Positions 1,581-14,364 of a stretch of 14,364 nucleotides of DNA are shown here, in pieces; position 1 is the first letter of the stretch, and each line of letters begins with the position of its first letter. The translations under genes were made by a program, and so were the position numbers. Origin of the DNA: an uncultured Microbacteriaceae bacterium (GTDB taxonomy: Bacteria; Actinomycetota; Actinomycetes; Actinomycetales; Microbacteriaceae); NCBI GenBank assembly GCA_946481135.1, contig CAMLMQ010000057.1, forward strand, positions 1 to 14,364, written 5' to 3'. The notes beneath the pieces were generated by a model. It worked only from the letters and a program-made list of their open reading frames with translations, was not told the origin of the DNA and did no database searches.

Positions 1581-3099
1581 CCGAGCCGTAGCGCGCGGTC
1601 AGTTCGCGCTTGAGCACCTTGCCGCTCGGTCCGAGCGGGAGGTCCTCGACGAGGTGGACGCGTCGCGGGTACTTGTGCGCCGCGATGCGCGCTCGGGCGT
1701 ACTCGGCCACGGCATCCGCTGTCAGGCTCGATCCCTCCTCGGGCACGACGGCCACCGCGACCTCCTGCCCGAGACGGTCGTCGGGAACCCCGAACACCGC
1801 GACGACGCGCACGCCGGGCAGGCGCGCGAGCACCTCTTCGAGCTCGCGCGGGTAGACGTTGTAGCCGCCGCGCAGGATGACGTCCTTCGTCCGGTCGACG
1901 ATCGTGAGCCTGCCGTCGGCGTCGAGGCGTCCGAGGTCGCCTGTGCGCAGCCACCCGTCGACGACGGCGCGCGCGGTCGCATCGGGATCGTCGTGGTAGT
2001 GGAGGAAGAGCGAGTGCCCGCGGATCGCCACCTCGCCGATCTCGCCCGGGGCGAGGCGGCGCGTCGCGGGGTCGTCGGGATCGACGACGGCGACGTCGAC
2101 GCCCCAGACGGGCGTGCCGACGTCGCCGGCGCGGCTGGGCTGACCGACGTGGTTCACGGTCGCCGTCGGGGAGGTCTCGCTGAGCCCGTACCCCTCGTGG
2201 ATCGGGGCGCCGAAGCGCGCCGAGAAGGCCTCGAGCACCGCTTCCGGCAGGGAGGAACCGCCCGAGATGACGTAGCGCAGCGGTGGCCGCTCCGGCGTGC
2301 GCCCGGCGGCCTCGAGGAGGCCGATGAACATCGTCGGCACCCCGGCGAACACCGTGACCCGGTGCCGGACGAGCGCGGCGAGGGTCTCGTCGGGGTCGAA
2401 TCGGGGGACGAGCAGGACGGTCGCCCCCCGCCGGAACGCCGTGTTGAGCACGTTCGACTGGCCGAAGACGTGCGACAGCGGAAGCACCGCGGCGAGGACA
2501 TCGTCGACGCGCACGTCGAACGAGTCGATGAGCGCGATGTGGGTCTGCTCCACGAGGTTGAGGTGTGAGAGGACCGCGCCTTTCGCCCTCCCGGACGTGC
2601 CGCTCGTGAAGAGCATCGCGGCGGGGTCGAGGGGGGATGTCGCGGCGACGCCGTCGAGCGGGATGCGCGTCGCGGCGAGCGTTGCGAGGTCGGCTGCGTC
2701 GTCCCCCGCGATGAGCAGGTCGGCGCCGGTCGACCGGGAGGCCGCGCGCACATCGTCGCCGTCGCGGGCGACGACGACGCGCGCGCCTGAGGTCTCGAGC
2801 ACGTGCGCGATCTCGTCGGCGCGCAGGAGCGGGTGCACGGGGACGACGATCGCGCCGAGCGCCAGCACCGCGTAGTACACGCGCGGGAAGTCGGGCACGT
2901 TGGGGAGCATGACGGCGACCCGGTCGCCCTGCCGCACGCCTCGGTCGGCGAGGACGGACGCGACGCGTCGGGTCTGCTCCCAGAGGACGCGGTAGGTGAT
3001 CGCCTCCGCGTCCGTGACGACGGCCACGCGGCCCCCGTGGCGCCGGGCGGACTCGGCGAGGATCGTCGCGACCGAGAGCGTCGCGTGCGGCCGGTTCAC
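1564..3099 (-). CDS. AMP-forming acyl-CoA ligase (ANL superfamily), ligase 1
   Basis: A 511-residue cytoplasmic acid-CoA ligase that activates a carboxylic acid through an acyl-adenylate. Seen in order: the phosphate loop LFTSGTSGRAKG (163-174), LPLSHVFGQ (207-214), A5 motif YGLSETSP (304-311), GWLRTGDLG (382-390), hinge region DRTKDVILRGGYNVYPRELE (402-421) and catalytic Lys494 in PSGKVLKREL. It resembles the FadD/long-chain and 4-coumarate-CoA ligase group, without clues to the acid. The GTG at 3099 is preferred over longer frames: AGGAGGA precedes it, it overlaps the MaoC stop as GTGA, and the protein begins at the usual place. It is the last gene of the SDR-MaoC-ligase operon, so it is translationally coupled. 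Its 3' end overlaps the thioesterase gene by 17 bp. Confidence 0.92.
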   Translation of the reverse strand: MNRPHATLSVATILAESARRHGGRVAVVTDAEAITYRVLWEQTRRVASVLADRGVRQGDRVAVMLPNVPDFPRVYYAVLALGAIVVPVHPLLRADEIAHVLETSGARVVVARDGDDVRAASRSTGADLLIAGDDAADLATLAATRIPLDGVAATSPLDPAAMLFTSGTSGRAKGAVLSHLNLVEQTHIALIDSFDVRVDDVLAAVLPLSHVFGQSNVLNTAFRRGATVLLVPRFDPDETLAALVRHRVTVFAGVPTMFIGLLEAAGRTPERPPLRYVISGGSSLPEAVLEAFSARFGAPIHEGYGLSETSPTATVNHVGQPSRAGDVGTPVWGVDVAVVDPDDPATRRLAPGEIGEVAIRGHSLFLHYHDDPDATARAVVDGWLRTGDLGRLDADGRLTIVDRTKDVILRGGYNVYPRELEEVLARLPGVRVVAVFGVPDDRLGQEVAVAVVPEEGSSLTADAVAEYARARIAAHKYPRRVHLVEDLPLGPSGKVLKRELTARYGSATSAS

Positions 3100-3566
3100 T
3101 CCTCCTCCGCGAGCAGCACGAGTTGCTCGGCGACGAGGGCGGGTCGTCCGCGCTCCTCGATCTCGACGGCGATCGAAAGCGTCGCGATCGCGCCGGTGCG
3201 CGCGGGCGAGACGGCCGTGAGGCGGGTGACAGCGCGGATGCGCTCGCCGACGCGCACCGGATGCGTGAACCGCACGCGATCGAGACCGTAGTTGACGCGC
3301 GTCCCGCAGCCGCCCACCTCGAGCGCGCCCTCGATGAGGTGCGGCAGCAGCGAGAGCGTCAGGAAGCCGTGGGCGACGATCGCGCCGAACGGCCCCGTCG
3401 TCGCACGCTCGGCGTCGAGGTGGATCCACTGGTGGTCCTCGGTCGCGTCGGCGAACATCCGGATGCGCTCCGCCGTCACGGGGAGCCACGCCCCGACGTG
3501 CGGTTCGACGGGCAGGGAGTCGCGCGCGTCCAGCAAGGCGGCGATCGACGGGTACGACGCGCTCAT
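3096..3566 (-). CDS. MaoC-like (R)-specific enoyl-CoA hydratase
   Basis: A 156-residue hotdog protein of the MaoC/PhaJ/NodN type, which hydrates trans-2-enoyl-CoA to 3-hydroxyacyl-CoA. The hydratase-2 signature is present: Asp44 and His49 in DATEDHQWIHLD match the catalytic Asp-x4-His pair of PhaJ, followed by GPFGAIVAHGFLTLSLLP (58-75). The ATG start overlaps the SDR stop as ATGA, and its own stop overlaps the ligase start as GTGA, so all three proteins are coupled. It fills the hydration step between the divergent acyl-CoA dehydrogenase and the SDR. MaoC enzymes of this size also act on aromatic or short branched enoyl-CoAs; the substrate is unknown. Confidence 0.9.
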   Translation of the reverse strand: MSASYPSIAALLDARDSLPVEPHVGAWLPVTAERIRMFADATEDHQWIHLDAERATTGPFGAIVAHGFLTLSLLPHLIEGALEVGGCGTRVNYGLDRVRFTHPVRVGERIRAVTRLTAVSPARTGAIATLSIAVEIEERGRPALVAEQLVLLAEEE

Positions 3567-4315
3567 GCCTGGGGGCCTCCCGCCACGTAGAGCACCTGGC
3601 CGGAGACGAACGACGCCTCGTCGGATGTGAGGAATGCGGCGGACGCGGCGATGTCGTCGGGCGTGCCGGTGCGGCGCACGGGGATCTGGGCCGCTGCGCC
3701 CGCGAGGTACTCGTCGAACGACATCCCCACCCGTTCGGCGGTCGCGCGCAGCATGTCGGTCGCGATGAAACCGGGGGCGATCGCGTTCGCGGTGATCCCG
3801 AACTGCCCGAGCTCGATCGCGAGCGTCTTCGTGAAGCCCTGCAGCCCCGCCTTCGCGGCGGCGTAGTTCGCCTGACCGCGGTTGCCGAGCGCGGACGTGC
3901 TCGACAGGTTGACGATGCGGCCCCAGCGCGCCTCGACCTGGTGCGCCTGAACGGCCCGCGTCACGAGGAAGGCGCCTCGCAGATGTACGGCCATGACGGT
4001 GTCCCAGTCGGAGTCGGTCATGCGGAAGAGGAGGTTGTCGCGCAGAACGCCGGCGTTGTTGACGAGGATCGTGGGGGCACCGAGCTCGCCGGCTATGCGG
4101 TCGACGGCCTCGGCGACGGCATCCGCGTCGGCGACGTCCGCCCCGACTCCGAGCGCCTCGCCCCCGTCGGCGCGGATCGCCTCGACGGTCTCGGTGGTCG
4201 CGGCTTCGTCGAGGTCGAGGACGGCGACGGACCGACCTTCGCGCGCGAGGCGGCGGGCGATGGCGGCGCCGATTCCTCGGGCGGCTCCGGTGACGACGGC
4301 GGTGCGTTCAGCCAT
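3563..4315 (-). CDS. FabG-like short-chain dehydrogenase (3-hydroxyacyl-CoA dehydrogenase candidate)
   Basis: A 250-residue classical SDR. Visible are the nucleotide-binding TGAARGIG (9-16), Asp60 in GADV, NNAG (86-89), catalytic Ser138, Tyr151 and Lys155 (YAAAK), and the PGFIATDM loop (181-188). The Ser138/Tyr151/Lys155 numbering is the same as in E. coli FabG. Inferred role: NAD(P)-dependent oxidation of the 3-hydroxyacyl-CoA made by the downstream MaoC hydratase. It is the first gene of the minus-strand operon; AGGAG sits 7-11 nt before the ATG. A candidate -10 (TATGTT, 4345-4340) overlaps a copy of the proposed GntR operator (4343-4353), so repression by the encoded GntR is expected. The family is certain, the reaction direction and substrate are not. 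Confidence 0.9.
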   Translation of the reverse strand: MAERTAVVTGAARGIGAAIARRLAREGRSVAVLDLDEAATTETVEAIRADGGEALGVGADVADADAVAEAVDRIAGELGAPTILVNNAGVLRDNLLFRMTDSDWDTVMAVHLRGAFLVTRAVQAHQVEARWGRIVNLSSTSALGNRGQANYAAAKAGLQGFTKTLAIELGQFGITANAIAPGFIATDMLRATAERVGMSFDEYLAGAAAQIPVRRTGTPDDIAASAAFLTSDEASFVSGQVLYVAGGPQA

Positions 4316-4339
4316 GGACTTCTCCTCGTTGAGATGACT

Positions 4340-4345
4340 AACATA
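4340..4345 (-). promoter_or_regulatory. Candidate -10 box of the SDR-MaoC-ligase operon
   Basis: Read on the minus strand, TATGTT fits TANNNT and would start transcription about 20-25 nt before the SDR ATG, leaving room for the AGGAG ribosome site. It overlaps operator copy A. No clear -35 box was found. Confidence 0.4.
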
Positions 4346-4353
4346 TCTGACTA
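4343..4353 (-). promoter_or_regulatory. Proposed GntR operator, copy A (SDR operon)
   Basis: On the minus strand the 11-mer is TAGTCAGATAT, matching the five-site consensus TAGTCAGATAA except in the last base. Downstream bases continue the likeness to copy B: TCAGATATGTTAGTCAT here versus TCAGATAAGGTTGTCAT there, 14 of 17 identical on opposite strands. It overlaps the candidate -10. TGACTA also occurs twice on the plus strand, 13 bp apart (4335 and 4348). Confidence 0.5.
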
Positions 4354-4406
4354 GTTGGCCTCACGTGTACGATTCAGGCGCACAATGTCCCCATAGGCCC
4401 CCGTAC

Positions 4407-4417
4407 TCATCAGATAA
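4407..4417 (+). promoter_or_regulatory. Proposed GntR operator, copy B (acyl-CoA dehydrogenase)
   Basis: TCATCAGATAA on the plus strand ends 7 bp before the ATG of the acyl-CoA dehydrogenase, so a bound protein would cover the ribosome site region. It is the partner of copy A in the same divergent 109-bp region, which is visibly less GC-rich than the genes around it. Confidence 0.5.
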
Positions 4418-4424
4418 GGTTGTC

Positions 4425-5633
4425 ATGGAGTCGCCGAGCCCGCCCGCACCGGGAGATCGCGAGAGCGTCTTCCCCGCCGACTTCTACGGGTTCGCCGACG
4501 ACCTCGACGAGCGCGAGGCCGCGTCGATCGACGCGCTGCGGACATTCCTCGAGGCCGAGGTGCGGCCCATCGCCGACGACCAGTGGGACCGGGCCGAGTT
4601 CCCCCACCACCTCATCCCGAAGATCGCCGAGCTCGGCTTGTTCGCCGACCCGTGGCCGCAGACGAGACGGTTCCCCAACAGTTCCGTCTACCGCGGGTGG
4701 TGCTGGATGGAGATCGCGCGCGTCGACCCGTCGATGACGACCTTCGTCGGCGTGCAGTCGGGGCTCGCGATGGGCGCCGTCGCGGTGGGCGGATCGGAGA
4801 CCCAGCAGGCCGAGCTCCTCCCGCTCATGGCGCGCGGCGAGCTGCTCGGATCGTTCGGGCTCACCGAGCCGCTCTCCGGCTCGGATGCGGCCCGGGGTCT
4901 CCGCACGACCGCTCGCCGCGACGGTGACGCATGGGTGCTCGACGGAGCCAAGCGCTGGATCGGCAACGCGACGTTCAGCGACTTCACCATCATCTTCGCG
5001 CGCGACGTCGCCGACGACGAGGTCAAGGGGTTCCTGGTGCGTGCCGGCACCCCCGGATTCCGCGCGACGAAGATCCCCGACAAGATCAGCCTCCGCACCG
5101 TGCAGAACGCCGACATCGCGCTCGAGGGCGTCCGGGTCGCCGAGTCGGATCGGCTCCCCGGCATCGTCGCGTTCCGCGACGTGGCGACGGTGCTCCGGCT
5201 CACGCGCGCCGAGGTCGCCTGGCAGGCGCTCGGCACCGCGGTCGGCGCCTACGAGACGGCGCTGCGCTACGCGCTCCAGCGCGAGCAGTTCGGGGTGCCG
5301 ATCGCCTCGCACCAGCTCGTGCAAGATCTGCTCGCCCGCAGCCTGGGCAACATCACGGCGTGCTTCGCGATGTGCGTGCGCGTCTCCCGCCTGCAGGATC
5401 AGGGGCGCCAGCGCGACGCGCACGCGGCGCTCGCGAAGGGCTTCGTGACGTCGCGATCGCGCGAGGTCGTCGCGTGGGCCCGCGAGATCCTCGGCGGAAA
5501 CGGGATCACCCTCTCGCACGGCGTCGCCCGGCAATTCGCCGACATGGAGGCGATCTACTCGTTCGAGGGCACACGGGAGATGAACAGCCTCATCGTCGGC
5601 CGCGCCATCACCGGCATCGCGGCCTTCGCCTGA
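4425..5633 (+). CDS. Acyl-CoA dehydrogenase, glutaryl-CoA dehydrogenase clade
   Basis: A 402-residue flavoprotein that makes the 2,3-double bond in an acyl-CoA and passes electrons to ETF. Seen: FGLTEPLSGSD (144-154), GAKRWIGNATFSDF (174-187), REQFGVPIASHQLVQ (286-300), LGGNGI (356-361) and catalytic Glu381 in SFEGTREMNSL, followed by IVGRAITGIAAF. This layout is that of glutaryl-CoA dehydrogenase. However, the Arg that GCDH uses to hold the distal carboxylate (in its YRSAMSVQSS segment) aligns with Thr105 (SMTTFVGVQS), and the Tyr before the catalytic Glu is Phe380. A different, probably non-dicarboxylic substrate is therefore likely. The ATG at 4425 has AAGG 5 nt upstream; further upstream the frame would cover operator B. 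It is divergent from the SDR operon and followed by a thiolase remnant. Confidence 0.9.
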   Translation: MESPSPPAPGDRESVFPADFYGFADDLDEREAASIDALRTFLEAEVRPIADDQWDRAEFPHHLIPKIAELGLFADPWPQTRRFPNSSVYRGWCWMEIARVDPSMTTFVGVQSGLAMGAVAVGGSETQQAELLPLMARGELLGSFGLTEPLSGSDAARGLRTTARRDGDAWVLDGAKRWIGNATFSDFTIIFARDVADDEVKGFLVRAGTPGFRATKIPDKISLRTVQNADIALEGVRVAESDRLPGIVAFRDVATVLRLTRAEVAWQALGTAVGAYETALRYALQREQFGVPIASHQLVQDLLARSLGNITACFAMCVRVSRLQDQGRQRDAHAALAKGFVTSRSREVVAWAREILGGNGITLSHGVARQFADMEAIYSFEGTREMNSLIVGRAITGIAAFA

Positions 5634-5912
5634 ACGCGGGGACGCCCCCCACGCCCGTCGTCGTCGCCACCGCCCGCTCGCCCATCGGCCGCGCCTTCAC
5701 GGGCCCCCTCGTGGAGGTGCGCCCCGACGATCTCGCGCCCAGATGGTCGCGGCGACGCTCGATCGCGTGCCCGAGCTCGGCGGCACCTCGATCGACGACC
5801 TCATTCTGGGCTGTGCGCTGCCGGGCGGAATGCAGGGAACAACCTCGCGCGCATCGTCGCGGTGCTCGCGGGCGGCCTGGTGCTCGTGCCGCAGCGCCTC
5901 GATCGAGGCAGG
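5634..5912 (+). pseudogene. Thiolase (acetyl-CoA acyltransferase) remnant, frameshifted and truncated
   Basis: Directly after the acyl-CoA dehydrogenase stop, plus-strand reading gives a thiolase N terminus in pieces. First comes TPVVVATARSPIGRAFTGPL...VRPDDLA, to about 5738. After loss of one base this continues as QMVAATLDRVPELGGTSIDDLILGCALPGGMQG, to about 5836. After a second one-base loss it reads NNLARIVAVLAGG, to about 5876. A last piece, CSCRSASIEAGQ, may be a decayed CASSLQ...AIKAGEG active-site region. No usable start codon precedes the first piece. The remaining roughly 300 residues, including the catalytic His and second Cys, are absent: the opposite acyl-CoA synthetase begins at 5913. 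An intact copy would supply the last step of the neighbouring beta-oxidation set. The truncation cannot be explained by base-calling error, although either single-base shift could be. Confidence 0.8.
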
Positions 5913-7484
5913 TCAGGCACCGAGCGACGCGCGGACCTCGCGCTTGAGCACCTTGCCCGTCGACGTGCGGGGGAGTGCGTCCCGGAACTCGACGCGGTCG
6001 GGCACCTTGAACGCGGCGAGCCGCCCGCGCACGTGTGCGAGGAGCTCCGCCTCGTCCACCGTCGAGCCGCCGCGACGCACGACGACCGCGAACGGCCGCT
6101 CGCCCCACTTCTCGTGCGGCACCGCGACGACGGCGGCGTCGGCGACGTCGGGATGCGCGAGAAGGGCGTTCTCGACCTCGATCGACGAGATGTTCTCGCC
6201 GCCGGAGATGATGACGTCCTTCGCGCGGTCCTTCACCTCGATGTAGCCGTCGGGATGCATCACCCCGAGGTCGCCCGAGTGGAACCAGCCGTCGCGGAAG
6301 ACCCGGGCGGTCTCCTCCTCGTCGCGGAAGTACCCGAGCATGACGTTGTTCCCCTGCATGAGGATCTCGCCGAGAGTCCGCCCGTCGCGGGGCACGTCCC
6401 TGCCCTCGGCGTCGACGATGCGCAAGCCGCCCGACTGCAGCATCGGCACGCCCTGACGCGCCATCCGCGTCGCGCGCTCGACGTCGTCGAGCTCCGCCCA
6501 CGAGACCTGCGGCTCGCAGATCGTGTAGGGGCCGTAGACCTCGGTGAGGCCGTAGGCGTGCATGACGTCGACCCCGATCGTCTTGAGGCGCGCGATGAGG
6601 GCCGGCGCGGGTGGGGCGCCGCCGGCGATCATCCGGATGGGGGAGGGGAGCGGATGCGCCTGCGGGGCGTCGGCGAGGATCGCGAGCACGGTCGGAGCGC
6701 CGCACAGGTGCGTCACGCCGTCCTCGTCGACCGCGCGCCAGACGTCGTCCGGACGCACGGCGCGCAGCAGCAGGTGGAGTCCGGCGGCCGCCGTGACGGC
6801 CCACGGTGCGCACCAGCCGTTGCAGTGGAACATCGGGAGCGTCCACAGGTAGCGCGTCGCGCCGTCGAAGCCGCTGTGGTGGGCGAATCCGAGGGAGTTG
6901 AGATAGGCGCCGCGGTGCGTGTACATGACGCCCTTCGGGCGGCCGGTCGTGCCCGAGGTGTAGTTGATCGCGATGACGCGGTTCTCGTCGTCGACGGTCC
7001 ACGGGCGGCGGGGGAGCGACGTGCTCTCCGCGAGAAGCGCCGCGTAGGGCAGCACGCCGGGACCGCCGCCTTCGCCGAGCCCCACGAGGAGCGGCGGCTG
7101 GTCGAGCCCCGCGAGCGCGCCCTGCGCGGTGTCGAGGAACTCGTCGTCGACGAGCAGGATGCGCGCGCCGGAGTGCTCGAGGATGTAGGCGACCTCGGGC
7201 GCGCTCAGCCGCGTGTTGATCGTCACGAGGGCGCCGTGCGCGAGCGGCACGGCGAAGTGCGCCAGGAGGAGCGCCGGCACGTTCGGGGCGAGGGTCGCGA
7301 CGCGGTCGCCGGGCTCGATCCGGGCGGCGAGGGCGGCCGCGACGGACTGCGCCTCGTCGGCGAACTCCGCCCACGTCCAGGATCGGCCGTCGGTGCGCAC
7401 GGCCTCGCGGTCGGGGAACACCGCGGCGGCCCGCTCGAGGAAGGCGAGCGGCGTGAGCGGTCGGTCGTGGGGGATCGGGGACAT
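5913..7484 (-). CDS. AMP-forming acyl-CoA synthetase, ligase 2
   Basis: A 523-residue ANL-superfamily acid-CoA ligase, clearly different in sequence from ligase 1. Visible motifs are YTSGTTGRPKG (175-185), LPMFHCNGWCAPW (216-228), AYGLTEVYGPY (310-320), GWFHSGDLG (399-407), DRAKDVIISGGENISSIEVE (419-438) and catalytic Lys511 in PRTSTGKVLKRE. The MFHCNGW segment is typical of the medium-chain/acetyl-butyryl AAE and methylmercaptopropionate-CoA ligase branch. The ATG at 7484 is preferred over the in-frame GTG at 7493, because GAGG lies 8 nt before the ATG and nothing useful precedes the GTG. It starts 18 nt after the FAH-hydrolase stop, as last gene of the gntR-led operon, so it may activate an acid released by that hydrolase. 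This link is an inference from order only. Confidence 0.92.
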   Translation of the reverse strand: MSPIPHDRPLTPLAFLERAAAVFPDREAVRTDGRSWTWAEFADEAQSVAAALAARIEPGDRVATLAPNVPALLLAHFAVPLAHGALVTINTRLSAPEVAYILEHSGARILLVDDEFLDTAQGALAGLDQPPLLVGLGEGGGPGVLPYAALLAESTSLPRRPWTVDDENRVIAINYTSGTTGRPKGVMYTHRGAYLNSLGFAHHSGFDGATRYLWTLPMFHCNGWCAPWAVTAAAGLHLLLRAVRPDDVWRAVDEDGVTHLCGAPTVLAILADAPQAHPLPSPIRMIAGGAPPAPALIARLKTIGVDVMHAYGLTEVYGPYTICEPQVSWAELDDVERATRMARQGVPMLQSGGLRIVDAEGRDVPRDGRTLGEILMQGNNVMLGYFRDEEETARVFRDGWFHSGDLGVMHPDGYIEVKDRAKDVIISGGENISSIEVENALLAHPDVADAAVVAVPHEKWGERPFAVVVRRGGSTVDEAELLAHVRGRLAAFKVPDRVEFRDALPRTSTGKVLKREVRASLGA

Positions 7485-7502
7485 CGTCGTCACCTCGTCC
7501 GG

Positions 7503-8351
7503 TCAGGCCGAGACGAACCTCTGGCGTTGGCGGCCGAGACCCGCGATCTCGACCTCGACGACGTCGCCGGCGGCGAGGTAGGGGAACCGTCCGGACAGCG
7601 CGACGCCCTCCGGGGTGCCCGTGAGGATGAGGTCGCCGGGTTCGAGCGCCATGTACTGGCTCAGGTGGTGCACGATCACGTCGACGTCGAAGATCATGTC
7701 GGCGGTCGACGAGTCCTGGCGCGGCTCGCCGTTGACCCAGCTCCGCAGTCGCAGGTCGCGCGGGTCGACCTCGTCGGGGGTCACGAGCCACGGCCCCGTC
7801 GGGTTGAATCCGGGGGCGCACTTGCCCTTGCTCCACTGGCCGCCCGACACGGCCATCTGGAAGTCGCGCTCGGACACATCGTTCGCCACGACGTAGCCCG
7901 CGATGTACCGGGCGCTGTCGGCGGGGCGGTCGAGATAGGAGGCGCGCTCGCCGATGACGACGCCCAGCTCGACCTCCCAGTCGGTCTTCACGCTCCCACG
8001 GGGGATCGCGACCGTGTCGTTCGGCCCCACCACGGTGTTGGGGGTCTTGAGGAACACGACGGGCAGCTCGGGTGGCGCCGAGCCCGACTCGGCCGCGTGC
8101 GCGGCGTAGTTCATCCCGACGCAGATCACGGCGCTCGGTCGCGCGACGGGCGCGCCGATGCGCAGCTCGTCGGCGTCGGGGAGCGCCGGGAGCGCCCCCT
8201 CCGCGAGGGCTCTGCGCACGCGGTCGGGCCCGCCGGAGGCGAGGAACGCCCCGTCGATGTCCGCGGTGAGCGGGCGCAGGTCGAGCGCCGCGTCGCCGTC
8301 CCAGACGACGGGGATCTCGGCGCCGACGGGGCCCAGTCGGGAGAGTCTCAC
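7503..8351 (-). CDS. Fumarylacetoacetate hydrolase (FAH) family C-C hydrolase/isomerase
   Basis: A 282-residue FAH-fold protein. The metal site is intact: Glu126 and Glu128 in DWEVELGVV and Asp158 in NDVSERDFQ. Other family landmarks are GMNYAAHAAESG (79-90), PVVFLKTPNTVVGPND (97-112), GPWLVTPDEV (186-195), LEPGDLILTGTPEGV (236-250) and GLGRQRQRF (271-279). The full-length pattern is like 2,4-diketo-3-deoxy-sugar-acid (fuconate/rhamnonate) hydrolases and homoprotocatechuate-pathway isomerases, which cleave or tautomerise 2,4-dioxo acids with Mg/Mn. The GTG at 8351 overlaps the ADH stop (GTGA), with GGAGG 9 nt upstream. With ADH, D-2-hydroxyacid dehydrogenase and a sugar-type importer nearby, a sugar-acid-like 2,4-diketo substrate is plausible; no residue shows it directly. 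Confidence 0.9.
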   Translation of the reverse strand: MRLSRLGPVGAEIPVVWDGDAALDLRPLTADIDGAFLASGGPDRVRRALAEGALPALPDADELRIGAPVARPSAVICVGMNYAAHAAESGSAPPELPVVFLKTPNTVVGPNDTVAIPRGSVKTDWEVELGVVIGERASYLDRPADSARYIAGYVVANDVSERDFQMAVSGGQWSKGKCAPGFNPTGPWLVTPDEVDPRDLRLRSWVNGEPRQDSSTADMIFDVDVIVHHLSQYMALEPGDLILTGTPEGVALSGRFPYLAAGDVVEVEIAGLGRQRQRFVSA

Positions 8352-9382
8352 GAGTCGCTTCCTCCACGCGTCACGGGTCCTCCGGAGAGGATGAGGGTCT
8401 TGTTGCTGTCGGGGCGCCGGGCGAGCGCCTCGAAGGCGCTGCCGCCCTCGTCGAGGCTCACCGTCTTGTCGATGAGGAGATCGAGCTCCGGATGCCCGTC
8501 GCTCACCCAGTCGGCGGTGCTGCGGAAGTGCTCGTCCGAGTAGCAGTAGCTGCCGAGCACGACCCGCTCGGTGACCGCGATGCCGTAGGGGGCGATCGTG
8601 AACTCCGGCGCGCCGAGGCCGACGAGCACGATGCGGGAGCGGGCGGTCGAGTGGGCGATCGCGTCGGCGAACGTCGGGCCCACGCCGACCGCGTCGACGA
8701 CGATCGTCGCGGGGCCGCCGAGCACGGCATCCCGGTCGCCGGCGAGCGTCGCGGGGGTTGTCGTCGCGAAGCCCAGCCGGGCGAGCAGGTCGCGCCGGGC
8801 CTCGACGGGCTCGCTCACGAGCACGTGGTCGAGGCCGAGGCGCCGGGCGGCGAGGGCGGCCGCCTGTCCGATGGGTCCGCCGCCGATCACGAGGAGGCGG
8901 TCGGATGCCTCGGGCCGCGCGCGCATGAGCGCGTGGTAACCCACCGCGAGTGGTTCGACGAGCGCGCCGTGCAGCGGCTCGAGGTCGTCGGCGAGGCGCA
9001 CGACGTTGGCGCGCGGCATGAGCAGCCGCTCGGCGAAGCTGCCGTCGAGCGTGGGCTCGACGCCGATGACCGTGAGCTCCGGGCACACCTGAGACTGCCC
9101 GTCGAGGCACGCCGGGCACGAGCCGCACGCGATCATCGGGTTGACCGTCACGAGGGAGCCGTCGGGGAGCCCGGGGTGGTCGCCTCGCACGCGCCCGACG
9201 GTTTCGTGTCCCATGACCTGGCCGCCGACGCGCCGGTCGGTCTCGCCGCTGTAGCCGTGCACGTCCGATCCGCAGATCCCGGTCGCGATGATGTCGATGA
9301 CGACGTCGTCGGGGCCGGCCACCGGCTCGGGCCGGTCGACGACGGCCATCTCCCAGGGGCTGAGGAAGCCGAGGGCACGCAT
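8348..9382 (-). CDS. Zn-dependent medium-chain alcohol dehydrogenase
   Basis: A 344-residue MDR-family NAD(P)-dependent dehydrogenase of the threonine/polyol dehydrogenase type. Catalytic zinc ligands are Cys37 (GICGSD) and His59-Glu60 (GHE). The structural zinc lobe has Cys86, Cys89, Cys92 and Cys100 (CGSCPACLDGQSQVC). Glu143 lies in LVEPLAVGYH, and the dinucleotide loop is VIGGGPIG (165-172). Inferred role: oxidation of a secondary alcohol to a ketone on a polyol or sugar acid. The ATG at 9382 is preferred to the in-frame TTG at 9394; GAGAA precedes it weakly. It follows the MBL gene by 41 bp and overlaps the FAH gene by GTGA. Confidence 0.92.
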   Translation of the reverse strand: MRALGFLSPWEMAVVDRPEPVAGPDDVVIDIIATGICGSDVHGYSGETDRRVGGQVMGHETVGRVRGDHPGLPDGSLVTVNPMIACGSCPACLDGQSQVCPELTVIGVEPTLDGSFAERLLMPRANVVRLADDLEPLHGALVEPLAVGYHALMRARPEASDRLLVIGGGPIGQAAALAARRLGLDHVLVSEPVEARRDLLARLGFATTTPATLAGDRDAVLGGPATIVVDAVGVGPTFADAIAHSTARSRIVLVGLGAPEFTIAPYGIAVTERVVLGSYCYSDEHFRSTADWVSDGHPELDLLIDKTVSLDEGGSAFEALARRPDSNKTLILSGGPVTRGGSDS

Positions 9383-9423
9383 CAGTTCTCGCAATCGGGT
9401 CGGGCCGGGAGTCCGGCGCGGGC

Positions 9424-10206
9424 CTAGGCCTGGGGCAGGACGCGCCCGTCGGGGTAGGTCTCGAAGTTGGCCGGGTCGTAGATCGGCAGGATGACGTCGG
9501 CAGTGCGCCGCACCCGCTCGTAGGCGTCGAGGATCTCGTACATGTTCTCGTTGATGCCCAACGGCACGTTCTCGACGACGTTGCGGCGATGGAAGTAGCT
9601 GTCGGAGATCGCGACGACGCCGGCGTCGGTGTCAACCTCGAGGACGATCGAGGCGCGGTGGTGCCCGCCCGACCACCACGTGCGCAGGCCGTCGGCGATC
9701 TGGTCCTCGTCGTCGAGGAGGCGCACACGCGACCAGGCCGTCGTCACGAGCTCGGTGAGGATCTCGTCGGGGATGCTCGTCGCGCGGTTGTCGTGCGGGT
9801 GCGAGTGGGTCGTGTGGAAGTGCACCCATCCGCGCCGCGCGATGCAGATCTGGGCGTTGGGGAAGGCGAGCACGTTGCTCACCGTGTAGAGCTGGAGCGG
9901 CGTGAGGATGACGTGTGTGACGTCCTCGGGCGCGACGCCGCGCGCCGCGAGCTGGTCGAGGATGAACTCGCCCTCGCCGCGTTCCATGCGCGCCTTCTCG
10001 CCGAGGAAGCTCGCCCATCCCGCGTTCATCGGCTCGAGGTCTTCGGCCGGGCCGGTGTTGACGAGAGCCGTGACGCACTCGCCCTGGATGAGGACGGACT
10101 GGAAGGTGAGCGGGAACCACTCCTCGAAGTTGTTCATCCAGAAGAGTTCGGGGCCCGGAATGATGCTGCGTCCCACGGGCATGGTCGTCACCGAGTAGCG
10201 GGTCAC
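9424..10206 (-). CDS. Metallo-beta-lactamase-fold protein lacking the HxHxDH motif
   Basis: A 260-residue protein with the overall course of AHL-lactonase/MBL hydrolases: N-terminal strands (LIQGECVTALVNTG, 39-52), a central VTHVILT strand (97-102), GGHH (180-183), and a late AISDSYF strand (199-205). Where the family has THxHxDH, this protein has TPLQLYT (102-108), replacing all four ligands. The last ligand segment (usually PGHDP) is PIYDP (241-245). Only His182/183 and Asp202 look retained. Either it is not a classical two-metal hydrolase, or it uses a new site; HFHTTHSHPHD (129-139) is a His-rich stretch that could supply ligands. The GTG at 10206 overlaps the gntR stop (GTGA), with GGAG 6 nt upstream. 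The gene is coupled to the regulator and precedes ADH, so a lactonase-like or ligand-handling role in the pathway is possible. Confidence 0.75.
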   Translation of the reverse strand: MTRYSVTTMPVGRSIIPGPELFWMNNFEEWFPLTFQSVLIQGECVTALVNTGPAEDLEPMNAGWASFLGEKARMERGEGEFILDQLAARGVAPEDVTHVILTPLQLYTVSNVLAFPNAQICIARRGWVHFHTTHSHPHDNRATSIPDEILTELVTTAWSRVRLLDDEDQIADGLRTWWSGGHHRASIVLEVDTDAGVVAISDSYFHRRNVVENVPLGINENMYEILDAYERVRRTADVILPIYDPANFETYPDGRVLPQA

Positions 10207-10916
10207 GGGTGCTCCTTCTCGTGCGGGTCGGCGGAACCGGGTTCGAGTCGCGCGAGTTCGCCGCGCACCTGACGCAGGTGCAGGTGCATTGCGGCGGAGG
10301 CGCCGACGGCGTCCCGGGCGCGGAGGGCGTCGACGATCTGCTCGTGCCAGGCGACGGCGCGCTCGATCGCGCCCGGCACGGCCGCCGAGGCGGAGCGGGT
10401 GCGCTGACCGAGGCCCGTGATCGAGTTGTGCATCGACACGAGGATGGCGTTGTCGGTGGCGCGCGCGAGGGCGTCGTGGAAGGCGATGTCGAGGTCGGCG
10501 TGTTCCGCGGGGGAATCGGTGACCGCGGCGAGTCGGTGGTTGATCTCCCTCATCTCGGCGATCGACTCGTCGCTCGCCCGGGTCGCCGCCATCGCGGCGA
10601 GGCGCGGCTCGAGGAGCTCGCGCGCCTCCTGCAGCATCCAGAAGTACTCGGTCGGGTTGGTCGCGTCGAGGAAGTCCTTGTCGAGCACGTGCCAGCTGTA
10701 CCGAGGCGCCACGGTCGCGACGCTTCCCTGCCGTACGACGATGAACCCCTTGGCGTCGAGCGCCTGGAGGGCCTCGCGTACGACGCTGCGGCCGACGCCG
10801 TAGCTCTCGCAGAGGACGGATTCGGGGGGCAGAGGGGAACCCGGTTCGATCGTGCCGTCGCCGATCATGCGGAGGTAGTCGGTCACGATCGCATTGCTCA
10901 AGCGGATGCGGGCCAC
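10203..10916 (-). CDS. GntR-family transcriptional regulator, FadR/FCD subfamily
   Basis: A 237-residue one-component regulator. The N-terminal winged helix (8-70) has LPPESVLCESYGVGRSVVREALQALDAKGFIVVRQG, the standard GntR signature. The C-terminal FCD ligand domain shows DLDIAFHDALARATDN (141-156), His191 (WHEQI) and His211/His213 (MHLHL), the usual metal/carboxylate-binding residues, so the effector is probably an organic or sugar acid. The GTG at 10916 is chosen because GAGGAGG lies just upstream and the helix-turn-helix then starts normally; the in-frame ATG at 10955 has no ribosome site. It is first gene of the MBL-ADH-FAH-ligase operon. Its promoter (TTGACA-16-TAGATT, 11104-11077) encloses a palindrome found at four other places in the window, suggesting autoregulation and regulation of the whole island. 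Confidence 0.93.
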   Translation of the reverse strand: MARIRLSNAIVTDYLRMIGDGTIEPGSPLPPESVLCESYGVGRSVVREALQALDAKGFIVVRQGSVATVAPRYSWHVLDKDFLDATNPTEYFWMLQEARELLEPRLAAMAATRASDESIAEMREINHRLAAVTDSPAEHADLDIAFHDALARATDNAILVSMHNSITGLGQRTRSASAAVPGAIERAVAWHEQIVDALRARDAVGASAAMHLHLRQVRGELARLEPGSADPHEKEHP

Positions 10917-10954
10917 GCTGCCTCCTCGTCCTGATGTGCTCTTCCGGTTTGCCA

Positions 10955-11021
10955 TGCACCGATTGTGGTGCACCGCATCCCTGGCGCCGTGCTTCGGCGG
11001 CGCCGCGGGACGGTGCACCGC
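10955..11021 (-). repeat. Repeated GGTGCACCGC palindromes in the gntR leader
   Basis: GGTGCACCGC occurs at 10967-10976 and 11012-11021, each containing the perfect palindrome GGTGCACC. The first copy also forms a TGCACC-6-GGTGCA inverted repeat (10955-10972). Both lie between the proposed gntR transcription start (about 11070) and its GTG. This could be a second operator type or leader structure, or a chance outcome of GC-rich sequence. Confidence 0.35.
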
Positions 11022-11076
11022 CCCGGGGTGCTCCGCCGCGTCGCCCCTCTTTCGTGAGCGGCGGCGCCGTGCTACA

Positions 11077-11104
11077 AATCTACTGCAGTTCAGACAAGTG
11101 TCAA
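11077..11104 (-). promoter_or_regulatory. Promoter of the gntR-led operon
   Basis: On the minus strand TTGACA (11104-11099) and TAGATT (11082-11077) are separated by 16 bp, a near-consensus sigma-70-type promoter in an AT-richer patch. It would yield a leader of about 150 nt before the gntR GTG. Operator copy E lies entirely within the spacer. Confidence 0.65.
11087..11097 (+). promoter_or_regulatory. Proposed GntR operator, copy E (gntR / hydroxyacid dehydrogenase)
   Basis: AGTTCAGACAA (reverse TTGTCTGAACT) is the copy closest to the generic FCD-GntR palindrome TTGTCTGACAA. It sits between the -35 and -10 of the gntR promoter, and just upstream of the candidate -10 of the divergent dehydrogenase gene, so one bound dimer could block both. 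Confidence 0.6.
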
Positions 11105-11116
11105 CAATTGACCGCG

Positions 11117-11122
11117 TAATCT
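11117..11122 (+). promoter_or_regulatory. Candidate -10 box for the D-2-hydroxyacid dehydrogenase operon
   Basis: TAATCT fits TANNNT and would start transcription near 11129, just before a hairpin. No good -35 box exists at 16-18 bp upstream, where operator copy E ends, so the promoter may be weak or need an activator. Confidence 0.35.
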
Positions 11123-11130
11123 GCCCAAGA

Positions 11131-11147
11131 TCCGCGATTTTCGCGGA
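11131..11147 (+). repeat. Hairpin at the 5' end of the hydroxyacid dehydrogenase leader
   Basis: TCCGCGA-TTT-TCGCGGA is a perfect 7-bp inverted repeat with a 3-nt loop, about 22 bp upstream of the start codon. If transcription starts at about 11129, the mRNA would begin with this stem. It could protect the transcript or act as a DNA operator; it has no terminator T-run. Confidence 0.5.
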
Positions 11148-11168
11148 ACCTATATGAAGAGGTCACCA

Positions 11169-12116
11169 ATGACGGCTCTCACCGTACTGCTCACCGACAG
11201 CGACCTGGGCGATCGATCCTTCGAGCGCGACCTGCTGCACGCGGCCGGCGACGTCGAGGTGGTGATCGCCGACTGCCGCACGGAGGACGACGTCGTCGCC
11301 GAGGTGCGTCGCCACGATCCCGACGCGATCGTCACGCAGTGGGCGCCCATCGGAGCGCGGGCGTTCGACGCCGCGACGCGACTCAAGCTCGTCAGCAGAG
11401 TCGGGATCGGGATCGACATGATCGATCTGCCCACCGCGCATGCCGCCGGAGTCGAGGTGCGCAACGTGCCCCACTACTGCACGGAGGAGGTGGCGACGCA
11501 CGCCGTCGCCCTCGCCCTCGCGCTCTGGCGGCGGCTACCGCAGCTCGACGCCGAGGTGCGATCCGGCGAGTGGAACGCGGCCGCCCACGCGCCCGAGATC
11601 GGCCGGCTCTCGGGCGCCACGGTCGGCCTCGTCGGCGCGGGACGCATCGGGGCGCTCGTCGGACGTGCTTTCGCCGTCTGGGGGGCGCGCGTGATCGTCG
11701 TCGACCCCGTGCCCGGCGACGACGGCTTCGAGCGGGTCGAGTTCGACGAGCTTGCGCGCCGCAGCGACATCGTGAGCCTGCACGCGCCCCTCCTCGACAG
11801 CACGCGCCACCTCGTCGGGCGCGACTTCCTCGCGGCCGCCGAGCGCCGCCCGATCATCGTGAACACGTCGCGCGGTGGCCTCGTCGACCTCGACGCGCTC
11901 ACGGAGGCCGCGCACGACGGCCGGGTGCGTGGCCTCGGTCTCGACGTGTTCGAGGAGGAGCCGCTCGCGGCCGACCACCCGATCCGGACCGCGCCCAACA
12001 CGCTCCTCGCCCCGCACGCCGCATGGTGCTCGAGGGAAGCCCTGCCGGACTTGCGCCGAGGTGCGGTCGAGAATGTGATCGACTTCTTCTCGCTGGCTTC
12101 GGGAGGGAGCGCATGA
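11169..12116 (+). CDS. D-2-hydroxyacid dehydrogenase (CtBP/phosphoglycerate dehydrogenase-like)
   Basis: A 315-residue NAD-dependent 2-hydroxyacid dehydrogenase. The nucleotide fold has GLVGAGRIG (153-161) and Asp179 in VVDP. Catalytic residues are Arg235 (NTSRGG), Glu264 (DVFEEEP) and His283 (APHAAW), and the substrate loop is SRVGIGIDMID (76-86). It has the two-domain length without the ACT domain of serine-pathway enzymes. Inferred role: interconversion of a 2-keto and a D-2-hydroxy acid made in the pathway. The ATG at 11169 is chosen because GAAGAGG ends 6 nt before it; the upstream in-frame ATG at 11154 has no ribosome site. It is divergent from gntR, shares operator E, and overlaps the next SDR by ATGA. 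Confidence 0.92.
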   Translation: MTALTVLLTDSDLGDRSFERDLLHAAGDVEVVIADCRTEDDVVAEVRRHDPDAIVTQWAPIGARAFDAATRLKLVSRVGIGIDMIDLPTAHAAGVEVRNVPHYCTEEVATHAVALALALWRRLPQLDAEVRSGEWNAAAHAPEIGRLSGATVGLVGAGRIGALVGRAFAVWGARVIVVDPVPGDDGFERVEFDELARRSDIVSLHAPLLDSTRHLVGRDFLAAAERRPIIVNTSRGGLVDLDALTEAAHDGRVRGLGLDVFEEEPLAADHPIRTAPNTLLAPHAAWCSREALPDLRRGAVENVIDFFSLASGGSA

Positions 12117-12919
12117 CGATGGGACAGGATTTCGCCGGACGGGTCGCGGTCATCACGGGCGCGGCATCCGGAATCGGAGGTGCGGTCGCTGCGGCGTTCG
12201 CGGCCGAGGGGGCGCGCGTCGCCCTCCTGGATCTCAATGTCGACGGACTCGCTGCCGTGCGCGACGAGCTCGGGGCGGACCGTACCCTCGACCTCGCGCT
12301 GGACATCACGTCCGGGACCGATGTCGAGCGTGCGCTCACGGCGGTCGTCGAGCGCTGGGGCCGCATCGACCACGTCGTGAACTGCGCCGCGAGCTTCATC
12401 GCGGCGGGATTGCGCGCGACGCGGGAGGAGTGGCTGCGCTCGCTCGATGTCAACGTCGTCGCGTCGGCGATGCTCACGGCGGCGGCGAGTCGCCACTTCA
12501 CCCCCGGGTCGACGGTCGTGAACATCTCGAGCATCTCGGCCCACGCCGCCCAGCCCGACCGCTGGACCTACAACGCGACGAAGGCGGCGATCCTCGCGCT
12601 GACGCGAGGGCAGGCGATGGACCTCGCACCGCAGGGCGTGCGGGTCAACGCGGTGAGCCCGGGATGGATCTGGACGGCCGAGGTCGAGAAGGCCGCCGAG
12701 GGCGATCGCGCGGCGTGGGAGCCGGTCTGGGGCCGCTACCACCTGCTGCGCCGACTGGGCGAGCCCTCCGAGGTCGCCGACGCCGTGCTCTACCTCAGTG
12801 GGCCGCGCTCGACGTTCGTGACCGGCAGCGAGCTCATGGTCGATGGCGGGTATTCCGCGATGGGCCCCGAGGGACTCGGCGACACGGCCAAGTTCGCAGG
12901 CAGCGACGCGCAGCTCTGA
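12113..12919 (+). CDS. Short-chain dehydrogenase/reductase (second SDR)
   Basis: A 268-residue classical SDR, translationally coupled to the hydroxyacid dehydrogenase (ATGA overlap, GGGAGG about 6 nt upstream). Seen: TGAASGIG (15-22), Asp40 in LLDLN (favours NAD), NCAA (90-93) in place of NNAG, catalytic Ser140, Tyr153 and Lys157 (YNATK), and PGWIWT (183-188). A C-terminal tail after VDGGYSAMGPEGLG (243-256) extends about 18 residues past the usual end. It differs strongly from the FabG-like SDR at 3563. Sugar or polyol dehydrogenases and 2-keto-3-deoxy-sugar-acid dehydrogenases have this form, which would fit the FAH hydrolase acting next, but this is inference. Confidence 0.9.
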   Translation: MTMGQDFAGRVAVITGAASGIGGAVAAAFAAEGARVALLDLNVDGLAAVRDELGADRTLDLALDITSGTDVERALTAVVERWGRIDHVVNCAASFIAAGLRATREEWLRSLDVNVVASAMLTAAASRHFTPGSTVVNISSISAHAAQPDRWTYNATKAAILALTRGQAMDLAPQGVRVNAVSPGWIWTAEVEKAAEGDRAAWEPVWGRYHLLRRLGEPSEVADAVLYLSGPRSTFVTGSELMVDGGYSAMGPEGLGDTAKFAGSDAQL

Positions 12920-12930
12920 TGACTCCGCGC

Positions 12931-12941
12931 TAGTCAGATAA
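12931..12941 (+). promoter_or_regulatory. Proposed GntR operator, copy C (upstream site of the ABC genes)
   Basis: TAGTCAGATAA equals the five-site consensus exactly. It lies 64 bp upstream of copy D, close to six helical turns, so two dimers could stand on the same face of the DNA and form a loop. It follows the second SDR stop by 11 bp, separating that operon from the transporter. Confidence 0.55.
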
Positions 12942-12987
12942 GTAACGCTGCTTCCGGCCCTGATTCGGATGTTGTGCGCCGTTCTGG

Positions 12988-13017
12988 TTGACACATGTCC
13001 GATAAGTTGACGATAAT
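12988..13017 (+). promoter_or_regulatory. Promoter of the ABC permease operon
   Basis: TTGACA (12988-12993) and GATAAT (13012-13017) are separated by 18 bp, the best promoter in the window. Operator copy D fills the start of the spacer, so a bound repressor would exclude RNA polymerase. The leader to the permease ATG is about 35-40 nt. Confidence 0.7.
12995..13005 (+). promoter_or_regulatory. Proposed GntR operator, copy D (ABC promoter spacer)
   Basis: ATGTCCGATAA matches eight of eleven consensus positions and lies between the -35 and -10 boxes, the same arrangement as copy E in the gntR promoter. Both D and E are followed within about 20 bp by AATTGACC. Confidence 0.55.
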
Positions 13018-13060
13018 TGACCTCGCGCCCCAGCGCGTCAGACTCGAAGAGGAGTGCACG

Positions 13061-13978
13061 ATGGCGGTCACCAGCGACGCCCCGACGCCGCAGCGACGGC
13101 GTCGACGCGGCACGCAGATGTCGCGCCGGATCCTGCTGTTCGCGCTTCCCGCGCTCGCGGTCTACGCGCTCATCGTGCTCATCCCCACGACGCAGGGCAG
13201 CATCTTCGCGTTCACCGACTGGAACGGTCTCAACCGCACCTACTCGTTCGTGGGGTTCGACAACCTCGCGAAAGTGCTCGCCGATCCCAAGTCGATGCGC
13301 GCGCTCATCAACACGCTCGTCGTCGCGTTCGTCTTCACGATCGTGCAGAACGTGCTCGGACTCCTCCTCGCGGTCGCGCTCAACTCGCGCCTCAAGTCGC
13401 GCAACTTCCTCAAGGTGCTCATCTTCGCGCCCGCGGTCATGACGCCCGTCGTCGTCGGCTACCTGTGGCGCTACATGCTCTCGACCGAGGGACCCGTCAA
13501 CACCCTCCTGCGCGCCGTGGGACTCGACTCGCTCGCGCTGACCTGGCTCGGCGACCCCATCACGGCGCTCGGCTCGATCATCTTCGTGCTCGTCTGGCAG
13601 CTCGCGGGCTACTCGATGGTCATCTTCCTCGCGGGCCTCCAGAGCGTCCCCGAGGAGATCATCGAGGCGGCCGCGGTCGACGGTGCGGGTCCCGCCCGGC
13701 GCTTCTTCAGCGTCATCCTGCCGTCGCTCGGGCCCGCCATCACGATCAACCTGATGCTGAGCATGATCGGCTCGCTCAAGCTCTTCGACCACGTATGGGC
13801 GCTCACCGGAGGCGGCCCCGGCGGACTCACCAACACCCTCACGACGCTCATGTTCCGCGAGGCGTTCGAGTTCGGCTCGTTCGGCCGCTCGGTCGCGCTC
13901 GGCCTCCTGCTGCTCGTGATCGTGCTCGTCATCTCGGTCGTCCAGTACCGGGTCCTGCTGAAGCGAGACACGCGATGA
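13061..13978 (+). CDS. Sugar ABC transporter permease, MalF/UgpA type
   Basis: A 305-residue integral membrane subunit of a carbohydrate-type (CUT1) importer. A basic N terminus (QRRRRRG, 11-17) precedes about six hydrophobic segments (near 24-42, 82-107, 118-137, 165-192, 222-242 and 276-297). The cytoplasmic EAA loop that docks the ATPase is clear: EEIIEAAAVDGAGPARRFFSVILPSL (198-223). The ATG at 13061 follows GAGGAG by 7 nt; the in-frame ATG at 12995 would start inside the promoter and is rejected. The stop overlaps the next permease by ATGA. No substrate-binding protein gene lies upstream, so it is expected downstream of the window. The promoter carries two operator copies. Confidence 0.93.
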   Translation: MAVTSDAPTPQRRRRRGTQMSRRILLFALPALAVYALIVLIPTTQGSIFAFTDWNGLNRTYSFVGFDNLAKVLADPKSMRALINTLVVAFVFTIVQNVLGLLLAVALNSRLKSRNFLKVLIFAPAVMTPVVVGYLWRYMLSTEGPVNTLLRAVGLDSLALTWLGDPITALGSIIFVLVWQLAGYSMVIFLAGLQSVPEEIIEAAAVDGAGPARRFFSVILPSLGPAITINLMLSMIGSLKLFDHVWALTGGGPGGLTNTLTTLMFREAFEFGSFGRSVALGLLLLVIVLVISVVQYRVLLKRDTR

Positions 13979-14364
13979 ACCGGTACACCTGGCGCAGCGG
14001 CATCCTCGAGGCCGCGATGGTGCTCGTGGGCGTCGCCGTCGCCTTCCCGCTCTACGTGATGATCAACATCTCGTTGCGTCGCACCAACGACCCCACCTCT
14101 CCGCTCGTGCCGTCGCCGAACTCGACGTTCGACAACTACGCCCAGGCCTGGGAGACGGCGGGCCTCGGTCAGGCGCTGCTCAACAGCCTTTTCGTGACGG
14201 CGGCGAGCGGCGTGCTCCTCGTCGTGCTCTCGGCGATGGCCGCCTACGCCGTTGTGCGGGTGACGTCGCGATGGTCGACGGCACTGTTCTACACATTCCT
14301 GGTGGGTCTACTGCTGCCCTTCCAGATCGCGATGATCCCGCTGTACTTCACGATGCGCGACCTG
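13975..14364 (+). CDS. Sugar ABC transporter permease, MalG/UgpE type (partial)
   Basis: The first 130 codons of the partner permease; the 3' end, including its EAA loop, lies beyond the window. Seen are a first membrane segment (AAMVLVGVAVAFPLYVMINISL, about 13-34), the FDNYAQAW segment that follows in MalG-type permeases (52-59), and NSLFVTAASGVLLVVLSAMAAYAVVRV (69-95), the typical start of the transport domain. A further segment at about 101-125 ends with LPFQIAMIPLYF. The start codon overlaps the stop of the first permease (ATGA), so the two subunits are coupled and should form a heterodimer. Confidence 0.92.
   Translation, partial: MNRYTWRSGILEAAMVLVGVAVAFPLYVMINISLRRTNDPTSPLVPSPNSTFDNYAQAWETAGLGQALLNSLFVTAASGVLLVVLSAMAAYAVVRVTSRWSTALFYTFLVGLLLPFQIAMIPLYFTMRDL

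Follow-up and report, generated by a model that had tools for sequence, protein, structure and literature searches.

Operator pairs six helical turns apart at promoters of a probable FCD-GntR regulon that links sugar and acyl-CoA genes in a Microbacteriaceae bacterium and relatives

Introduction

FCD-type GntR proteins, sugar regulons and paired operators (AraR, Atu1419) are already known. A survey of the FadR subfamily (Suvorova et al. 2015, PMC4494728) reports double sites at a near-constant distance in 29 divergons that include the transcription factor gene. For Atu1419, a VanR-type FCD tetramer of Agrobacterium fabrum, DNA looping has been proposed between two palindromes, one of them degenerate (PMC7797058). 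AraR of Bacillus subtilis binds cooperatively to two in-phase, properly spaced operators, with formation of a small DNA loop, at several promoters of a sugar regulon (PMC4218819). In actinomycetes, L-rhamnose regulons bring an alpha-L-rhamnosidase, an ABC importer and catabolic genes under common control (PMC3870299), and BusR is a GntR protein that acts as a molecular ruler on a bipartite motif (PMC8517857). Here we analyse a stretch of 14,364 nucleotides (nt) from an uncultured Microbacteriaceae bacterium (GenBank assembly GCA_946481135.1, contig CAMLMQ010000057.1, positions 1 to 14,364), called the window below. It encodes a GntR regulator of the FCD type (10203..10955, minus strand) and carries six operators, arranged in three pairs, at promoters of sugar-type and acyl-CoA genes.

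The regulator and its sites share with the surveyed FadR subfamily the domain make-up, a palindrome with a 3-nt centre and the occurrence of double sites; they differ in that the flanks extend the motif to 15 base pairs (bp) and the G of the GT...AC core is more often an A. The accessible part of the survey gives no distance figure, and for divergons lacking a transcription factor gene it mentions no group with constant distance. Bridging by an FCD GntR protein has likewise been proposed for Atu1419, whose palindromes overlap the -10 box or sit between -10 and -35, but the spacing of its pairs varies (190 and 109 bp), and it is of the VanR rather than the FadR type. AraR has paired in-phase operators at several promoters of one sugar regulon, with a different motif. 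The regulators named for L-rhamnose regulons in the accessible text belong to the LacI, DeoR and AraC families, the term ‘GntR’ being absent from the main text of that study, and the classical rha enzymes were not recognised in the present cassette. BusR has the ruler-type two-part site in common with the present GntR and differs in separation (22 bp), effector domain (RCK_C) and signal (c-di-AMP). What is new is that a constant spacing of six turns holds at four unrelated types of promoter within an FCD-GntR regulon. Neither uniform six-turn pairs in such a regulon nor a combined rhamnosidase/acyl-CoA regulon was found in the open-access literature searched, as far as its texts were accessible, which is not proof of absence.

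Three operator pairs in the window

The initial annotation had read five single 11-mers as operators of the GntR regulator. A direct check of the letters found all five at the positions and on the strands given there, but the unit proved to be a 15-bp palindrome that occurs in pairs, with six sites in three pairs rather than five single sites. Its consensus, approximately ACTTRTCnGAYAAGT with a 3-nt centre, is the one conserved word in the promoters of relatives that precede a D-isomer 2-hydroxyacid dehydrogenase gene (HADH) and sugar permease genes. A symmetrised 15-bp matrix was built from 12 sites of six other genomes, without any sequence from the window or from the acyl-CoA operon at its left. 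Over all window positions, the five highest scores of this matrix (22.1 at 4341, 21.4 at 12993, 18.8 at 12929, 17.7 at 4405 and 17.5 at 11085) fall exactly on the five reported sites. The next score, 10.5 at 11148, marks a sixth operator that had been overlooked; it is kept in relatives and is the partner of the site at 11085. All 52 half-sites around the 3-nt centre have the core T (or, in the mirror half, A).

The 11-mer itself carried little of this information. Its consensus TAGTCAGATAA, with up to three mismatches, gave 6 matches against 4.1 expected, at least six being reached in 49 of 200 shuffles; the six matches take in four of the five reported sites and miss the one at 11087. The proposed likeness to the FCD-GntR operator type TNGTNNNACNA is loose, since one mismatch yields 23 matches in the window against 29.4 expected, without enrichment, and covers one of the five sites. 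Neither pattern beat chance, and both were dropped as search patterns for the 15-bp matrix.

The first pair lies in the divergent gap between an SDR oxidoreductase gene (SDR1) and an acyl-CoA dehydrogenase gene (ACAD): O1 (4341..4355, ACATATCTGACTAGT) is ∼25 bp 5′ of the SDR1 start and O2 (4405..4419, ACTCATCAGATAAGG), 64 bp away, is 5 bp 5′ of the ACAD start. The second occupies the gap between gntR and HADH, with O1 at 11085..11099 (GCAGTTCAGACAAGT) and O2 at 11148..11162 (ACCTATATGAAGAGG; 12.3 in the pair test described below), the latter overlapping the Shine-Dalgarno sequence in the HADH ribosome-binding site. The third precedes the permease operon, with O1 at 12929..12943 (GCTAGTCAGATAAGT) and O2 at 12993..13007 (ACATGTCCGATAAGT). 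This last operator sits between the -35 and -10 boxes of, and overlaps, a putative permease promoter read from the sequence, TTGACA-N18-GATAAT (12988..13017, plus strand). The operators at 4405-4419 and 11148-11162 have AAGG or AAGAGG at their end and probably serve as Shine-Dalgarno sequences as well, a role that would explain their imperfect right arms.

Constant spacing across promoters and relatives

With the GntR protein as query, one scan of genome contigs yielded seven loci, four of them close (70-81% identity) and three, at 30-32%, left unused. The close loci come from Salinibacterium metalliresistens (L001, genome G001; GntR 80% identical), Corynebacterium-like B27 (L002), Microbacterium sp. 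NIBRBAC000506063 (L003) and Candidatus Lumbricidophila eiseniae (L004). Two further loci were found among 366 genomes of the genus of genome G003, in G567 (L014, 75%) and G476 (L015, 60%). In these relatives with the same gntR the operators recur at orthologous promoters. The HADH O1 site lies at the same place in L001, L002, L003 and L004, and the counterpart of the HADH O2 site is kept at 63-64 bp in the same four loci (before HADH) and in L014 (before the oxidoreductase gene SDR2).

Measured centre to centre, the three pairs of the window are spaced by 64, 63 and 64 bp, an equality not remarked in the initial annotation. With each locus excluded from its own matrix, the distances are 63, 74 and 64 bp in L001, 63 and 63 in L002, 64, 63 and 64 in L003, 64 in L004, 64, 63 and 63 in L014, and 64 in L015. 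A pair test covered 17 promoters with one main site each (three in the window, 13 in the six relatives and one in L027, a second G567 locus); the matrix came from the main sites of other loci only, and the best partner was sought within 11-150 bp on both sides. A second operator was present in all 17 promoters, with the best partner (scores 9.5 to 21.5) at 63 or 64 bp in 16 of them and at 74 bp in the remaining one. At 10.5 bp per turn, 63-64 bp correspond to 6.0-6.1 helical turns and 74 bp to 7.0 turns.

The binomial value for this test, 5e-29, assumes independent promoters. Since orthologous promoters are not independent, the weight is placed instead on the four unrelated promoter types in which pairs occur, namely the gap that separates HADH or SDR2 from gntR or the MBL hydrolase gene, the permease operon, the aldo-keto reductase (AKR)/rhamnosidase gap, and SDR1/ACAD. 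The inter-operator stretches of the three pairs in the window are unlike each other (16-22 of ∼49 bases identical), so that recent duplication does not account for the constant distance. Among 300 random windows that follow the trinucleotide composition of the real one, no pair at the same spacing scored above 3.9, against minimum scores of 19.4 (SDR1/ACAD, the best pair in the window), 15.3 and 12.3 for the real pairs. In five of five permease promoters examined, TTGACA directly abuts one operator.

Weaker operator-like sites accompany some pairs, at 12462 of L014 (41 bp upstream of the G567 permease pair) and at 14693 of L015 (84 bp from the second HADH site of G476), and single weak ones occur elsewhere among the loci scanned.

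Genome-wide occurrence of sites

In the six GntR genomes, the single-site pattern ACTNRTCNGAYAAGT with mismatches matched 21 to 47 times on each strand of a genome, less often than a reversed control pattern; single sites found by pattern are thus not specific, whereas pairs are. A sequence model of the paired region (R1), made from 15 pairs (three from the window, 12 from relatives), was searched against these six genomes in full and returned, at E ≤ 1, 26 rows at 15 distinct places, all of them cassette promoters or the SDR1/ACAD locus, with no off-target place. Twelve of these places are pairs of relatives from which R1 had been made. Of the remaining three, one is G567:445899. Another is the G001 permease site with its 74-bp pair, where R1 matched a single operator (E 0.45). 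The third, G002:C572:33725, is at a contig end overlapping the C501 permease region (99% over 246 bp) and is the same site as the one there, already in the model.

The regulator itself is rare. It was found in one of 398 genomes of the family of G001 (E ≤ 1e-60; G001 itself) and in three of 366 genomes of the genus of G003 (E ≤ 1e-45; including G003), two draws that may overlap. With E ≤ 0.01 and stricter filters, R1 found pairs in three of the 366 and one of the 398 genomes, the same ones in which GntR was found. The informative part of these large R1 searches is the absence of pairs elsewhere. A protein database held 224 relatives of the regulator; among the best 120 of the 224, the first 111 (the window's own included) have at least 43% identity and the next at most 39%.

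The conserved cassette and the separate acyl-CoA locus

The 10-kb island of the initial annotation resolves into a conserved right-hand cassette joined to a separate acyl-CoA locus. On the minus strand, gntR heads the operon gntR-MBL-ADH-FAH-ligA. The metallo-beta-lactamase-fold hydrolase MBL (9424..10206), lactonase-like, has weak family matches only and no Pfam match; it is followed by a zinc-type alcohol/polyol dehydrogenase (ADH, 8348..9394), an FAH-family hydrolase (7503..8360, the open frame as searched, with the true start a few codons inside) and the acyl-CoA synthetase gene ligA (5913..7493). On the plus strand lie HADH (11169..12116, start picked after the ribosome-binding site), SDR2 (12113..12919), a CUT1-type sugar ABC permease (13061..13978), syntenic in relatives, and a second permease that begins at ∼13975 and runs off the window. 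SDR2, HADH, gntR, MBL and ADH are syntenic in L001-L004, the permeases in L001, L003 and L004, and FAH and ligA in L001 and L003. Within the locus stretches compared, no match was found for the permeases in L002 or for FAH and ligA in L002 and L004. The order is rearranged in L014 and L015; the stretch of L015 compared has no FAH or ligA match and a permease match of only 33%.

For the FAH protein, the best NCBIfam model is 2,4-didehydro-3-deoxy-L-rhamnonate hydrolase, at 251 bits and below the cut-off of 500. Against solved structures the first match is 4-hydroxyphenylacetate isomerase/decarboxylase and the second L-2,4-diketo-3-deoxyrhamnonate hydrolase. The window ends before any rhamnosidase gene. 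A full alpha-L-rhamnosidase with Pfam rhamnosidase domains is present in L014, and counterparts recognised by translation likeness, incomplete in the stretch covered, in L001 and L003, each with an adjoining operator pair. In L001 and L014 the rhamnosidase gene is divergent to AKR with the pair between them; in L003 the rhamnosidase-like gene is divergent, across a pair, to a short frame resembling the AKR start. This L003 frame (1468-1614) begins like the AKR of L001 and ends after 48 codons, from a broken gene or a sequencing error. FAH, SDR, ADH and lactonase-like genes are present, but neither a dehydratase nor an isomerase/kinase/aldolase set was recognised among the window genes, and the full rhamnose route could not be assembled. 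The substrate is likely to be a rhamnoside, the sugar of which would be oxidised while the acyl part passes through CoA thioesters. In L001, the pair at 1529/1592 is followed (1596-4734) by AKR, a phosphotransferase-like gene and an acyl-CoA dehydrogenase gene, so that acyl-CoA genes stand behind a regulon promoter by another route.

The left locus consists of SDR1 (FabG-like, 3563..4315), the first gene of its operon, a MaoC-like hydratase gene (3096..3566) and the acyl-CoA ligase gene ligB (1564..3099), all on the minus strand, and the divergent ACAD (4425..5633, plus strand). This unit does not adjoin the cassette in any of the six relatives, over the 12-21 kb covered per locus, and close SDR1 proteins (E ≤ 1e-50) are absent from five of the six GntR genomes. 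The sixth, G567, has an orthologous unit at 445899 (L027), with SDR1 77%, MaoC 54% and ligB 61% identical (the latter over the part covered) and an ACAD with an internal deletion. Its divergent gap holds two operators of 22.8 each, 63 bp apart, as scored with a matrix free of window and L027 sequence. Unit and cassette lie on the same 3.51-Mb contig at 0.445 and 2.805 Mb, 2.36 Mb apart along the contig or ∼1.15 Mb by the shorter way if the contig is a closed circle. This locus is the decisive case: far from gntR and yet paired, the acyl-CoA unit is tied to the regulon through its operators and not by neighbourhood. The ACAD of L027 (1530-2047) has lost its middle part, and the divergent promoter there may serve mainly SDR1-MaoC-ligB.

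Between ACAD and ligA in the window, the stretch 5634-5905 looks by eye like a broken thiolase start with frame changes; it has no Pfam or tblastn match. This stretch is probably the junction of the acyl-CoA locus and the cassette.

The regulator

The GntR protein combines an N-terminal GntR winged helix (Pfam, 3.7e-15) with a C-terminal FCD domain (1.1e-27), both above the Pfam gathering scores. AraR is not an FCD protein, and its effector domain is of another family. In 35 chosen sequences, R56, R60, H160, H204 and H226 are invariant and D156 is near-invariant; D156, H160, H204 and H226 match the D-H-H-H pattern that we take to be the FCD metal-site signature. An AlphaFold2 model (mean predicted local distance difference test score, pLDDT, 90.9) superposes on E. 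coli FadR with a query template modelling (TM) score of 0.72-0.75 and on Atu1419 (VanR) with 0.50-0.53, figures that are affected by domain orientation. By E-value, the top matches of the model are other GntR proteins, with a TM score of about 0.5; structural alignment gives 21-23% identity to Atu1419. As modelled, the fold thus appears FadR-like rather than VanR-like. E. coli FadR is a dimer.

The gntR start (10953-10967, minus strand) lies 6 nt behind CACAAT, and the arrangement [CG]ACAAT-6 nt-ATG also occurs in L001, L002 and L014 (three of the five relatives compared); L003 differs and none was seen in L004. This suggests that the gntR mRNA may be leaderless.

A repressor that would bridge paired operators

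That a single FCD-GntR regulator joins the importer with the sugar-acid-like and acyl-CoA sets, as first proposed from the window, is strongly supported: the operators recur in relatives, the left pair of G567 is distant from the cassette, and pairs co-occur with GntR. Very probably, the protein encoded at 10203-10955 is a repressor that bridges paired, in-phase 15-bp operators across the regulon. It would bind the two palindromes of a pair, with centres 63-64 bp or about six turns apart, on the same face of the DNA. The bound dimers, or a tetramer, would then bridge both sites and close a small loop across the promoter or start region, which would last until a pathway intermediate frees GntR from the two sites. 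In the window, the three pairs would place SDR1-MaoC-ligB with ACAD, HADH-SDR2 and the sugar ABC permeases under joint control, and in relatives a further pair would control the alpha-L-rhamnosidase and AKR genes. Repression is suggested by the operator directly behind TTGACA in five of five permease promoters and by the overlap of the HADH and ACAD O2 sites with the ribosome-binding site in the window. The distance stays constant while the position of the sites relative to promoter and start varies with promoter type, so that the constraint most likely comes from the protein. Sequence comparison establishes the operators with their paired arrangement, distances and conservation, as well as their occurrence together with GntR; GntR as the binder, its repressor role, bridging with loop formation and a rhamnoside-like substrate are inferred.

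Several points weigh against this interpretation. The 74-bp pair of the Salinibacterium permease means that the spacing is not absolute, although it amounts to about seven turns, and the main sites of the pair test were selected after the pairs were already visible. The G of the classical GT...AC core is present in only 16 of 52 half-sites. The better superposition on FadR than on the tetrameric Atu1419 means that a tetramer, unproven, is not supported by the modelled fold. Control of the operon gntR-MBL-ADH-FAH-ligA, and with it autoregulation of gntR, is less certain than that of the other promoters, because the putative -10 box falls at the start codon of gntR and the nearest operator is >100 bp away. 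Most of the R1 places in the six genomes, and all matches of the large searches except G567:445899, were in the model; the window's pair orthologous to G567:445899 was in it too, so this R1 match alone is not independent. The large GntR and R1 searches scored only the first ∼6-12 candidates per genome, and misses are possible. Finally, SDR1 relatives occur in 48 of the 366 genus genomes (50 places, E ≤ 1e-80), and the 29 loci from GntR-less genomes among the best 30 of the 50 have no pair, only four single weak matches (10.5-13.2) away from the SDR1 start; for one of them (L099) only ∼60 bases upstream were covered. These 29 loci have another gene order, none with a divergent ACAD, and are thus not a like-for-like control and not used as proof.

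Of the alternatives, the one that survives best, though distinctly less probable, is that GntR binds each operator as an independent dimer with a separate job, one blocking the -35 box and the other a ribosome-binding site or divergent promoter, the distance being set by promoter geometry or common descent. According to PMC7797058, the GntR regulators studied before Atu1419 were all dimeric; the model superposes best on FadR, and orthologous promoters inherit their spacing. Such dimers would, however, have to arrive at 63-64 bp in four unrelated promoter types that differ in the position of the sites relative to promoter and start codon, and at a lone exception shifted by a whole turn. An activator is improbable. 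The centre of the upstream permease site, ∼52 bp before the -35 box in the window, is where activators can sit, but the other site is directly behind that box in all five permease promoters, and in the window O2 of both HADH and ACAD overlaps the ribosome-binding site. Slightly less credible still is another regulator, encoded elsewhere, to which gntR is a coincidental neighbour: the motif does depart from TNGTNNNACNA, yet its 3-nt centre is FCD-like, and pairs and GntR were found in the same three of 366 and one of 398 genomes and in no others of those sets. The weakest proposal is that the resemblance of the left sites (4343 and 4407) arose by chance and that regulation is confined to the right cassette. 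Although the 11-mer alone is not above chance, five of the six GntR relatives have no close SDR1 and, over the stretch covered, the left unit adjoins the cassette in none of them, the pair scores at least 19.4 at both sites, exactly 64 bp apart, and its G567 counterpart has two sites of 22.8 at 63 bp.

Implications

Returning to the repressor that would bridge its paired operators, it is tempting, though tentative, to propose that this GntR clade is a DNA ruler that requires two operators separated by six, or rarely seven, turns and bridges them as a tetramer or as paired dimers. It would link rhamnoside uptake and sugar oxidation with acyl-CoA oxidation of a possible aglycone, as in a hydroxy-fatty-acid rhamnoside, and on more than one occasion may have gained an acyl-CoA locus as target: SDR1/ACAD in the window and in G567, and AKR-APH-ACAD in Salinibacterium.

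With spacing this uniform across unrelated promoters, the mechanism of an FCD GntR protein becomes directly testable, and a paired-site signature without off-targets in six genomes (E ≤ 1) makes its target genes predictable genome-wide. The regulon, as read here, connects a sugar-oxidation cassette with acyl-CoA genes, a connection that is not visible from gene order alone.

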